DNA from: Chloroflexota bacterium
GTDB taxonomy: Bacteria; Chloroflexota; Anaerolineae; J102
Reading direction: 5' to 3'
NCBI GenBank assembly: GCA_013151415.1
Contig: JAADII010000107.1
Location: forward strand, 1 to 52,633
Length of the DNA: 52,633 bases
Shown here: positions 10,739 through 52,633 of the stretch, in pieces
Numbering within the stretch: position 1 is the first letter of the stretch
Layout of the letters: each line of letters begins with the position of its first letter
The notes under the pieces: generated by a model
Database searches by the model: none
The model's input: the letters and a program-made list of their open reading frames with translations, nothing else
Told to the model about the DNA's origin: nothing
Program-made: the position numbers and the translations under genes

Positions 10739-10838
10739 AGGGACGAACATGGACGAAAAATAGACCAAGATAGACGATAAAGGGTGGATGTCGCCTCGAT
10801 TTCATGGTCTATCTTCGTCCTATCGTCCTTTGGTCTAC
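10739..10838. repeat. Imperfect hairpin of GACCAA/GACGAT words
   Basis: The left arm (10761-10783) reads TAGACCAAGATAGACGAT and the right arm (10804-10838) carries ATGGTCTATCTTCGTCC and ATCGTCCTTTGGTCTA, so the arms are complementary in overlapping registers. It belongs to the same family as the copies at 33061-33140 and 45870-45920. Confidence 0.65.
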
Positions 10839-11027
10839 TCGTCAAGGGCGAGTTTTCCTACTGACAAACGAAAGGCGTCGATAAGCGGTTATGCGCATTT
10901 TACACAAATTGTATCATTTATTGCAATCATCGTGTTCTGTAGTCATGGCAAAGCCCGCAAGGGCTGAAGCAATCTCCAAAGGGCATGGCGGCCGCGGGTG
11001 AATGTCGCGGAAAACGAGGGTTGGTGT

Positions 11028-11033
11028 TATAAT
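11028..11033 (+). promoter_or_regulatory. Candidate -10 element of the glcDEF promoter
   Basis: A perfect TATAAT lies 118 nt before the glcD ATG. No good -35 hexamer is present at the right distance, so an activator may be needed or the call may be wrong. Confidence 0.4.
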
Positions 11034-11049: not shown

Positions 11050-11150
11050 AGAGGTTAGAGTAGCAGAGGTCAGAACTTCAGATATCAGAGCCATAGATCG
11101 ACCAAACGACCACACGACCAACAGACCAAGCGACTACGCGACTAACAGAG
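11050..11150. repeat. glcD leader built of CAGAG and CGACCAA words
   Basis: From just after the TATAAT to the last base before the ATG, the sequence consists of CAGAG-containing words followed by about seven 7-8 nt words of the type CGACCAAM/CGACTANC. A 20-nt block (11115-11134) is identical, in the same orientation relative to the gene, to 52494-52475 in the leader of the suf-operon regulator. No Shine-Dalgarno site is seen, and the words run directly into the start codon. Confidence 0.75.
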
Positions 11151-12551
11151 ATGCCTGGATCCGCCTTTTTTTCGGCCCTGGAAGAAATTTACCCGCCGGA
11201 GCGGTTGTTGCGCCGGCCGGCCGCGCTTGCCGCCTATGAATCGGACGCGCTGACCGCGTTTCGGGTGCGACCGCTGGCCGTGGTGTTGGCCGAGTCGCAG
11301 CAGGAGGTGATCGATACGGTGCGAGCGTGTTATGAGCACGGGGTTCCGTTCGTGGCGCGGGGGAGCGGGACGAGTCTTTCGGGCGGGTCGTTGCCCATCG
11401 AGGATGGGATCGTGATCGCGCTGAATCGTTTGAATCGGATTTTGCTGGTGGACCCGGCGCGGCGCGTGGCCGTGGTGGAGCCGGGCGTGGCGAATCTGGC
11501 CGTGTCGCAGGCGGCCGAGCCGTTTGGGCTGTATTATGCGCCCGACCCGTCGAGCCAGCCGATTTGCACCATCGGCGGGAATGTGGCGTTCAATTCAGGG
11601 GGCGCGCATTGTCTGAAGTATGGGATGACGACCAACCATGTGTTGGGCTTGAAGGTGGTGTTGCCGGATGGCGAAGTCGTGACGCTGGGCGGGGATAGTC
11701 TGGAAAGCGTGGGCCCGGACCTGGTGGGGTTGTTCGTGGGAAGCGAGGGGCTTTTTGGCATTGCGCTGGAGATCACGCTGCGCCTGTTGCCCAGACCGGC
11801 CTCTTTTCGCACGATTTTGGCCGCTTATCGCAGCATGAAGCAGGCGGGCGAGGCCGTGGCCGCGGTGGTGGACTCGGGTTTGTTGCCGGGCGCGATCGAG
11901 ATGATGGACGCGTTGGCCATCGAAGCGGCCGAGGCGTCGGTGCAGGCCGGGTATCCTGAGGGCGCGGCCGCGGTGTTGATTGTGGAGTTGGAGGGCGAGG
12001 AGGCGCAGGTGGAGGCGGAGTTCAAGACGCTGGTGCAGGTGATCGAGGCCTCGGGCGCGTATGAGGTGCGGGTGGCGCAGGACGTCGCGCAAAGGGCGCG
12101 CATCTGGAAGGGGCGCAAGGGCGCGTTTTCCGCGGTGGGTCGGCTCAGCCCGGATTATGTGGTGCAGGATGGGGTGGTGCCGCGCACGCGCCTGGGCGAG
12201 GCCATGGCGGAGATCGAGCGGTTGAGCAAGGCGTATGGTTTGCGGGTGGCGAATGTGTTTCATGCCGGCGACGGGAATTTGCACCCGCTGATTTTGTATG
12301 ATGGCCGCGAGGAGGGCGCGCTGGAGCGGGCCGAGGCGCTGGCCGCGGAGATTCTGGCCATGTGCATCGATATGGGCGGGTCGATTACGGGCGAGCATGG
12401 CGTGGCCATCGAGAAACGCGCGTTTTTGCCGAAGATGTACGGCGAGGTGGATATGGATGTGATGGTCGAGTTGCGCGAGAGCGTAGACCCGAAGGGGATC
12501 GCGAATCGGGGCAAGATGTTGGAGGTTGGACCTTGGAGGCGGGAAGGATGA
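11151..12551 (+). CDS. glcD: FAD-linked glycolate/D-lactate oxidase subunit GlcD
   Basis: This 466-residue member of the vanillyl-alcohol oxidase (FAD_binding_4) superfamily has its FAD-binding PP loop in [16 protein letters not shown] (about 66-81). [13 protein letters not shown] (about 139-151) is the second flavin contact. The C-terminal cap ends with [13 protein letters not shown] (about 367-379) and [14 protein letters not shown] (about 408-421), both conserved in GlcD. With GlcE and GlcF it oxidises glycolate or D-lactate at the inner face of the membrane and passes electrons to quinone. The start is the ATG at 11151 directly after the repeat-word leader. Its stop overlaps the glcE start (ATGA at 12548). 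Glycolate and D-lactate oxidases of this family cannot be told apart by eye. Confidence 0.93.
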
Positions 12552-32924: not shown

Positions 32925-33170
32925 TGGAAGGGACGATGGGATCATAGGACGAAGAGACCATGGCCGAACCTAACCCCATCGTCCTATCGTCTTATGGTCT
33001 TATCGTCTATTTTCAAAGCACTCCGACGGCGGGCTTGTCCGCTCCGACACGGACTTGCGCCGACCAAAGTAGACCAAAGTAGACCAAGATAGACGATGGG
33101 CCTTTTGGTCTATGTTGGTCCTATGGTCTATGTTGGTCTGAGCGCTCATCAAGGCCTGTATTGGACATTG
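32925..33170. repeat. Composite intergenic repeat element (orientation opposite to the 45712 copy)
   Basis: Read on the minus strand, the element consists of a GACCAA/TTGGTC hairpin (33061-33140), a GC-rich CGGGC/GCCCG section (33025-33060), and a GACGATGG-type hairpin (32925-33010). The segment 33053-33118 matches the reverse complement of 45862-45930 almost base for base, except for AAAG versus AACG differences. An 18-nt block of the GTCTATGTTGGTC type is present twice here and once there. No gene is visible in 32891-33175. Confidence 0.8.
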
Positions 33171-51780: not shown

Positions 51781-52419
51781 CTACTTGGGCCGAACCGCGA
51801 AGGAGCAGCTTGTGTGACCGTCCATAATGCAGGATTGCAGCTCGACCTCCGCGCCGAGCACGTCCGACATCATGGCCTCCTCCATTTCGCAGATTTCGCG
51901 ATGTTCGGCCGCGAGCTCGTGGTAGGGACAATTATACTCGTGCAGGAAGATAATGTCGTCATTGTGAGACACATCAGAAAGGATGCCGCGTTCGTCGAGC
52001 ACGGCCGCGAGTGAGCGAACGCGCTCTTGCAACATCTCGCCCCGCACTTTCTGTTGATATTGGTTCGCCAACCGCGCGCCCACTCGGTCCAATAATTTTC
52101 GCACCACGGCCGGCCCCTGATCGGCCAGCAATTCTTCGTAGAGATTCAAGGCCAGGTCTTCGCAATAACACGCGAACAGGTCGCGCGCTTTGTCGGTCAG
52201 CATATAAACGTAATGCGGTCGCCCCGGCCCGCTCCGCTCAGAGCGCGTCGAAGCGAGGTATCCTTCGGCCATGAGATAGGCGATCTGCTGGCGCACGGCT
52301 GTATCGCTGACGCCCAGTTCGCGGCGCAAATCTTTGATGCCCATCGCGCCCTTGCGCTGCAAGAGCTTGACGATCTGGCCGCCGGGAGAGTTGTCGAGTC
52401 TACGGGAAAGTGCTGGCAT
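51781..52419 (-). CDS. SufR-like Fe-S-binding winged-helix regulator
   Basis: This 212-residue protein has a winged helix-turn-helix (about 15-75, RRELGVSDTAVRQQIAYLMAEGYL). The middle is helical and the C-terminal region is rich in Cys: Cys164, Cys177, Cys197 and Cys205. The first spacing, Cx12C, equals that of SufR, but the next ones are x19 and x7 rather than x13 and x14. SufR proteins hold a 4Fe-4S cluster and repress suf operons when clusters are sufficient. It is the first gene of the operon and has a promoter with an internal palindrome at 52600-52617. No ribosome site is visible before the ATG, and the leader is made of repeat words. Confidence 0.82.
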   Translation of the reverse strand: MPALSRRLDNSPGGQIVKLLQRKGAMGIKDLRRELGVSDTAVRQQIAYLMAEGYLASTRSERSGPGRPHYVYMLTDKARDLFACYCEDLALNLYEELLADQGPAVVRKLLDRVGARLANQYQQKVRGEMLQERVRSLAAVLDERGILSDVSHNDDIIFLHEYNCPYHELAAEHREICEMEEAMMSDVLGAEVELQSCIMDGHTSCSFAVRPK

Positions 52420-52428
52420 GGGGGTGGG

Positions 52429-52550
52429 TTACTGGATATTGGGTATTGGAGGGACGATGGACGATGAGACAATGGTCGCTTGGTCTGTTGGTCGGCTTCT
52501 GACTTCTGAGGCTCTGAAGCTCTGTAGCTCTGAAACTCTGTGGCTCTCAT
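52429..52550. repeat. Repeat-word leader of the suf operon
   Basis: On the minus strand the leader reads CAGAG-type words (52550-52500), then CGACCAA words including a 20-nt block (52494-52475) identical to 11115-11134. CATCGTCC words (52470-52450) and CCAATAC words (52449-52433) follow, up to just before the ATG. It is transcribed if the promoter at 52595-52624 is used. Confidence 0.75.
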
Positions 52551-52594: not shown

Positions 52595-52624
52595 ATTGTA
52601 CCATTGCCCAAAATGGTTTGTCAA
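52595..52624 (-). promoter_or_regulatory. Promoter of the suf operon
   Basis: On the minus strand TTGACA (52624-52619), an 18-nt spacer and TACAAT (52600-52595) point towards the regulator gene at 52419, leaving a leader of about 170 nt. Confidence 0.7.
52600..52617. promoter_or_regulatory. Candidate operator inside the suf promoter
   Basis: ACCATT (52600-52605) and AATGGT (52612-52617) form an inverted repeat with a 6-nt centre, filling the -35/-10 spacer. A repressor bound here would block RNA polymerase, as expected for autoregulation by the SufR-like protein. Confidence 0.5.
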
Positions 52625-52633
52625 ATTTTCACT

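Follow-up and report, generated by a model that had tools for sequence, protein, structure and literature searches.

Two leaders in one genome can share an exact block of sequence because a common signal acts on both, or because the same kind of repeat has arisen in each. This question is raised by a 52,633-nucleotide stretch of Chloroflexota DNA (the window), which is the whole of contig C27 and part of a 4.52-Mb draft genome (G000). An earlier sequence-only reading pointed out that the leaders of glcD and of the suf operon hold the same 20 nucleotides. Because GlcF needs Fe-S clusters, it conceived of a common post-transcriptional input, with random spread of one repeat as the alternative. 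The window does encode both a GlcF-like protein and Suf proteins. The features of the two leaders are as follows.

11025 to 11033, + strand: putative extended -10-like element TGtTATAAT upstream of glcD, found by eye.
11064 to 11090, + strand: CAGAG-type words at 8-nt spacing in the glcD leader.
11099 to 11146, + strand: period-8 CGACYANN array of the glcD leader, six units.
11115 to 11134, + strand: 20-nt block identical to 52494-52475.
11151 to 12551, + strand: glcD, FAD-linked oxidase, glycolate oxidase subunit D-like (Pfam PF02913/PF01565; NCBIfam glcD matches under curated cut-offs).
51781 to 52419, - strand: sufR-like regulator, first gene of the suf operon (NCBIfam SufR_cyano, E 6.6e-22, under the curated cut-off).
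52428 to 52470, - strand: ATCGTCC and CCAATATCC words between the suf array and the ATG (TRF row 52452-52475).
52473 to 52494, - strand: period-8 CGACYANN array of the suf leader, three units, holding the 20-nt block (52494-52475).
52497 to 52540, - strand: six CAGAG-type words at 8-nt spacing in the suf leader.
52595 to 52624, - strand: suf promoter TTGACA-18-TACAAT, which matches the consensus and is conserved in relatives.
52619 to 52633, - strand: operator half AGTGAAAATTTGACA, cut by the contig end; the operator-like sequence is conserved in relatives.

Direct comparison confirmed the block, its coordinates and its common sense. The sequence CGACCAACAGACCAAGCGAC occurs in exact copies at 11115-11134(+) and 52494-52475(-), each reading toward its downstream gene (glcD start 11151, sufR-like start 52419). 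The flanking bases differ on both sides, and the identity does not extend further. The genes sufB and sufS lie downstream of the sufR-like gene (NCBIfam), for whose protein Pfam at 1e-8 gave no family. The claimed order of CAGAG words, CGACCAA words and ATG is present in both leaders, and the suf promoter agrees with the consensus. The promoter claimed for glcD fared less well: a consensus scan of this leader found none, and only the extended -10-like element was recognized by eye.

Both word classes step by 8 nt in both leaders. Within 70 nt upstream of the array, and ahead of the CGACCAA words, there are four CAGA[AGT] words for glcD and six for suf. The array that follows in the glcD leader has six GACYA units. 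For suf, the leader divides into CCACAGAG TTTCAGAG CTACAGAG CTTCAGAG CCTCAGAA GTCAGAAG CCGACCAA CAGACCAA GCGACCAT, followed by ATCGTCC and CCAATATCC words that make up ∼50 nt extra between array and ATG. The absence of a Shine-Dalgarno (SD) site, also claimed, is borne out, as zero SD-like tetramers are present ∼4-20 nt before the glcD and sufR starts. This absence is ordinary, because 62% of 606 sampled G000 genes lack such a tetramer in the same test.

The arrangement is not confined to these two genes. When the 20-mer was matched with up to three mismatches, 30 genome sites were found versus 0 for a reversed control pattern, which places these sites beyond chance. A separate set of 30 candidate loci, chosen from several pattern searches, was viewed, and 20 of these are start-directed by eye. 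To be counted as a strict tract, a locus had to contain three GACYA words spaced by exactly 8 nt, which left 17. This strict pattern has 45 exact matches in G000 (21 forward, 24 reverse) versus 0 for the control; they are the complete set and fall in 17 loci, all of which were inspected. Fifteen of the 17 tracts, in a draft genome with home-made gene calls, run in sense toward a start codon (binomial p 0.0012). Without the two leaders originally noticed, the count is 13/15 (p 0.0037). The exceptions are C24 and C186, the latter having no gene within 800 nt ahead and its next start at 957 nt. The orientation expected for the block itself also holds in G000: all five sites with at most one mismatch (C27 twice, C88, C149, C181) are in sense and precede a start codon.

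The start-directed tracts lie close to their genes. In 14 of the 15, the tract ends at most 58 nt before the called start, and in the fifteenth (C138) the distance to rpmJ, a gene overlooked by the caller, is 26 nt. ATG is absent from all 15 and present in both of the other tracts, which hints at selection. At least two CAGA[AGT] words occur within 70 nt upstream of the tract at 6 of the 17 loci, two of these being glcD and suf, and downstream at none of the 17. Only 1.2% of 4972 background windows contain that many. The start bias and the CAGAG-then-CGACCAA order in G000 exceed the orderliness expected of plain neutral slippage.

Another period-8 word of this genome, ATCGTC, provides a comparison. 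In an 893-kb sample of G000, its arrays are start-directed in 14 cases, stop-directed in 16, inside genes in three and at edges in two. The ATCGTC family therefore does not share the start bias, and the orientations of the two families differ (Fisher p 0.006).

The genes that follow the 15 tracts have no visible functional theme. They encode an ABC ATPase, a glycosyltransferase, GlcD, the SufR-like regulator, ribose-phosphate diphosphokinase (PRPP synthase), an RND transporter, a CODH/ACS subunit, a ComEC-type competence protein, SelB, L36, a LysR regulator, a ProV-type ATPase, RbfA, an alpha/beta hydrolase (MetX by eye) and a Uma2-like protein (named by eye; NCBIfam gave nothing). Nor is the tract always a promoter leader, since several tracts, at least those of C6, C70, C79, C103 and C182, occupy the short gap after a co-directional gene. 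The C6 tract (L202 ∼1876-1926) is not even a leader-only element, because its CAGAG/CGACCAA sequence doubles as the 3′ end of the gene preceding the ABC ATPase, specifying that gene's C-terminal ∼16 residues. In five relatives this upstream gene has a different ending, with no period-8 tract in the 150 nt inspected by eye. The same kind of ABC ATPase follows a C6-type upstream gene in G003, G005 and G006, also by eye.

Is an exact match of 20 nt between two such leaders remarkable? The unit has the consensus C/A-GAC-Y-A-N-N at 8-nt spacing, and among 89 pooled units the commonest, CGACCAAC, appears 17 times. The units are degenerate rather than near-identical, as units of a slippage-type simple sequence repeat would be. 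Exact stretches of at least 20 nt are shared by 4 of the 136 pairs that 17 tracts can form, and arrays simulated from the pooled units gave a mean of 5.1 such pairs. For two arrays of glcD and suf size alone, the simulated chance is ∼1%. Since four pairs were observed versus about five simulated among many pairs, the shared 20-mer is explained as a product of a limited vocabulary of units.

The 8-nt step was also sought in bulk sequence. In the intergenic DNA of the 893-kb sample (61 stretches), GACYA words are spaced by 8 nt in 17 pairs and by 10 nt in 36, the 10-nt spacing being largely due to a separate palindromic element. ATCGTC words in the same DNA are spaced by 8 nt in 54 pairs and by 7 nt in 27. 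In the coding sequence of the sample, 8 nt is absent among the GACYA spacings listed, and ATCGTC has six pairs at 8 nt and four at 7 nt. A lag-identity analysis of pooled intergenic sequence gave a weak signal. Period-10 GACCAA elements and the GACCATAGGACGAAGAGACCA repeat were considered as tracts and set aside, as they lack the strict pattern and belong to other dispersed families.

Several such families are visible in G000. The palindromic element, ∼95 nt long (GCGCCGACCAACGTAGACCAAAGTAGACCAAGATAGACGATGGGCCTTTTGGTCTATGTTGGTC...), is found in the window at 33059-33145 (+) and ∼45924-45835 (-). It has 13 regex matches in the 893-kb sample, ∼10 with the full palindrome, and the first window copy has a predicted fold of -45.4 kcal/mol. 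A second dispersed repeat (ATGGTCTATCTTCGTCCTATCGTCCTTTGGTC...), at 10796-10862 of the window, has copies of 64-65 nt with 88-92% identity in four other sampled contigs. The third is the word GACCATAGGACGAAGAGACCA, which with close variants occupies at least ∼33 sites on many G000 contigs (e.g. C78, C134, C150).

Orthologous leaders indicate when the suf tract was acquired. The closest named sufR relatives, in records that may leave out the host's own, belong to Caldilineales and other Anaerolineae MAGs, with 70% identity at best, so the host is probably one of the Caldilineales. Leaders were compared in 15 relatives (10 genomes and 5 MAGs); the remaining named loci appear to duplicate these contigs or do not reach far enough upstream. 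By eye, the TTGAC[AG] promoter box upstream of sufR is kept in all 15, and some form of the operator-like sequence TTTTCACTATTTTTATAGTGA is kept in all but CAG2. This palindrome, with variants, adjoins the sufR -35 in L033-L042, L092, L096, L098 and L100. Two GACYA words 8 nt apart were found within 240 nt upstream of sufR in none of the 15 relatives, and in none of five glcD relatives' leaders. With CAG2, which is not measurable this way, left out, the distance from TTGAC[AG] to the matched sufR start is 60-91 nt in 13 relatives, 131 nt in S139_26 and 205 nt in G000. Because the relatives keep the promoter and have no array, the tract was evidently gained in this lineage between a conserved promoter and sufR.

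The start of an ABC-transporter gene, compared across 11 genomes of the family, reveals different words before one orthologous start codon. G000 has two CGACCACG-type units there and G012 has nine, the final 21 nt up to ATGGG being shared. The units of G004 are of the CGACCGCA type, G001 has AACCAACC-type words, and G003 has TTGGTTAG-type words in the opposite strand sense; six genomes have no tract. The start codon is the same, and the gap is not, because G004 and G012 have a different small upstream gene. The change in copy number, two units versus nine, therefore comes from a single locus, compared between genera and with a differing upstream neighbor.

Within the class, CGACYANNCGACYANNCGACYA was found in 43 of 298 genomes. 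The reversed control pattern also scores in some genomes (185 matches in G081, 80 in G203), which indicates that other period-8 words exist; its strength in G081, G203, G018 and G198 suggests arrays of such words. Period-8 words, these or different ones, are present in other Anaerolineae genomes. A class-wide set of 100 distinct tracts was assembled, counting both arms of inverted pairs and drawing loci non-randomly, many of them from incomplete lists of pattern matches. In this set, start-directed tracts number 8/12 in G005, 3/11 in G016, 4/17 in other genomes of the family (f1) and 18/43 in the rest of the class. Of the remaining tracts, 12 lie within called genes, three are at an edge and the others are stop-directed. 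In the other genomes, tracts are directed at stops roughly as often as at starts; both orientations and gene 3′ ends occur, which is the outcome that the sequence-only reading named as refuting it. Mixed orientations over 100 tracts led to rejection of a class-wide rule that arrays point to starts.

A different regularity does extend across the set. Measured on the GACYA strand, the distance from the tract's 3′ end to the next gene boundary is at most 30 nt in 31/44 start-directed and 25/30 stop-directed tracts, and the 5′ end is this close in 9/44 and 3/30 (Wilcoxon p 0.007 for start-directed and 5e-6 for stop-directed tracts). In a narrower set of 81 tracts, the 3′ end is at a boundary in 28/36 and 22/25, respectively. 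These counts depend on simple-script gene calls and non-random loci, and the 5′ border hinges on the definition of the word, as other words often continue upstream. Two G005 distances (L253, L303) are wrong in the count, the next ATG being ∼10 nt away by eye, and G005 L251 is a different word, GACCAGTA. The unit contains CTA, which supplies the opposing gene with a TAG stop, and for this reason many stop-directed tracts have their end at -3; these tracts therefore seem to have run into gene ends.

Arrays in G005 reach 44 units, the longest being a GACYA array of ∼350 nt between convergent genes (L255 9505-9853). Several G005 contigs (L253, L303, L311, L318) start or finish within arrays, so assemblies probably break at them. 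In other families of the class, L273, L274, L276, L290 and L291 hold inverted array pairs, (TAGTCGNN)n..(CGACTANN)n by eye, which would form long hairpins beside gene starts.

The RNA that would be made from the start-directed tracts is predicted to be open. For the 60 nt before the 15 starts, the mean predicted fold is -3.6 kcal/mol, versus -11.4 kcal/mol for 400 sampled genes and -13.1 kcal/mol for 345 GC-matched genes. Low structure follows from the base composition of the tracts (40% C, 38% A, 17% G and 5% T) and is therefore no proof of function. A riboswitch or other known leader RNA was rejected for lack of an Rfam match (none in the whole window at the gathering score), and the array leaders are predicted to be weakly structured. 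An SD site precedes 5 of the 15 array genes versus 38% of 606 background genes, and SD use in Caldilineae is tabulated as 42% (PMC10783764). Because the rate for array genes resembles the background, a role in replacing the SD site is unsupported. As far as these predictions go, the tract appears compatible with translation, with no sign that it substitutes for an SD site.

The closest known system is that of the TAACTGA heptamers of marine Beggiatoaceae. The portions of MacGregor 2015 (PMC4679880) devoted to them place these repeats mostly forward and just upstream of start codons, with few SD sites, no common function among the genes and orientations that differ in other lineages, and propose a regulatory role at the RNA level. 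The tracts described here are likewise short direct repeats over the ribosome-binding region, mostly forward and nucleotides from the start codon. As in the heptamers, most units contain a single G, the genes behind them lack a functional theme, the distribution is patchy, and orientations differ elsewhere. The forward orientation typical of TAACTGA repeats is seen in G000 (15/17) and not in other f1 genomes or G016. Further differences are the host, a member of the Chloroflexota, and the unit, which in G000 is 8 nt and degenerate (C/A-GAC-Y-A-N-N) rather than an exact heptamer. In addition, a second class of period-8 words often lies ahead of the tracts, the tract words vary between related genomes, and SD sites are not clearly depleted beside the tracts.

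Other repeats are more distant. As summarized in the same source, the long simple sequence repeats of Mrazek 2007 have 5-11 nt units, are phylogenetically scattered and were proposed to arise by slippage, and the AGAT repeats of the Moraxella catarrhalis uspA2 gene lie in its 5′ UTR, between promoter and start codon (PMC4679880). Judged by these summaries, the tracts differ from the long simple sequence repeats in that their units are degenerate and mixed and they abut gene boundaries with polarity. They resemble the uspA2 repeat as tandem repeats between promoter and start codon; unlike that exact 4-nt unit at one phase-variable gene, they precede many unrelated genes, with no evidence of phase variation. 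The STRR sequences of cyanobacteria, heptanucleotide repeats, are degenerate, short and intergenic like the tracts, and are set apart by description, having 7-nt units instead of 8. In the sections available from a survey of repeat patterns over prokaryotes, purine runs and alternating patterns are given for Chloroflexi, and not such tracts (PMC4060949). None of the open-licence PMC titles and abstract openings listed describes these tracts in Chloroflexota.

The explanation that we consider probable is that the glcD and suf leaders contain a lineage-specific, degenerate, fast-turnover period-8 tract of gene gaps, of the slippage type, that supplies an unstructured leader. A tract with the unit C/A-GAC-Y-A-N-N, often after a period-8 CAGAG tract, would grow in intergenic gaps, most likely by replication slippage together with unit mutation, and would turn over rapidly. 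In G000, the tracts would mostly be retained in the orientation that reads CGACCAA.. into the start codon. A start-directed tract would give the mRNA a C/A-rich, unstructured leader without internal ATG, and ribosomes may tolerate or use such a leader much like other SD-less leaders. The translational role would then be permissive, and a dedicated trans-acting factor is probably absent. The glc and suf genes would share the tract because both gaps were colonized, and not via a common regulator. Spread of one repeat, the alternative offered by the sequence-only reading, is nearer to the evidence than its glc-suf link.

An account that dispenses with any benefit to translation is unlikely. The tract would be a purely neutral repeat whose polar growth halts at coding sequence, and the start bias in G000 would be a small-number or founder effect. 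In its favor are the 3′ ends at gene boundaries in both orientations (31/44 and 25/30, versus 9/44 and 3/30 for the 5′ end), the run into coding sequence at C6 and the inconsistent orientation across genomes. Against it are the 15/17 bias in G000 (p 0.0012) and the ATCGTC repeats of the same genome, which show no such bias.

It is quite unlikely that the tracts define a post-transcriptional regulon, in which a modular RNA-binding protein (S1-, Csp-, Hfq-like or other) reads the 8-nt units, (CGACCAAN)n, and sets translation of glcD, suf and ∼13 other genes. Sense orientation and start proximity in 15/17 tracts, predicted unstructured leaders, the repeated CAGAG-CGACCAA order and the lack of ATG in 15 start-directed tracts would all suit such a protein, and the role proposed in the TAACTGA portions of PMC4679880 is a close precedent. 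However, its targets would have no functional theme, the tract is missing from orthologous sufR and glcD leaders, relatives carry different words before one start codon, and start preference is absent in other genomes with the same unit (four start versus eight stop in other f1 genomes; three versus six in G016).

A further proposal is speculative and, in our judgment, decidedly doubtful. The tracts may belong to an Anaerolineae family of polar tracts whose words are interchangeable while the 8-nt step is kept, with a favored order of words and, in either orientation, a 3′ end abutting the next gene boundary. A dedicated polar process would lay them down, and start-reading tracts would be recruited as generic SD-free ribosome landing leaders. 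If this proposal is true, then the process might rely on an enzyme acting by template switching or terminal addition, or on slippage confined to one strand.

A specific glc-suf co-regulatory element tied to Fe-S supply for GlcF, as originally conceived, is highly improbable and was rejected: the identical 20-mer in the same sense and the presence of GlcF-like and Suf proteins in one window speak for it, but the same vocabulary precedes 13 other, unrelated genes, several arrays are intercistronic, shared 20-mers are expected from the vocabulary, and relatives lack the array at these genes (0/15 sufR, 0/5 glcD).

Whether they arose by slippage, as we favor, or otherwise, the tracts are real and orderly, and are best read as an 8-nt counterpart of the start-proximal TAACTGA repeats of Beggiatoaceae. 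Repeat words common to two leaders need not mean co-regulation, and the glcD and suf leaders serve as a warning in this respect. Degenerate 8-nt tracts in Chloroflexota, with differing words at one orthologous start, form a natural comparative series in which a translational effect can be set against tolerated products of slippage.
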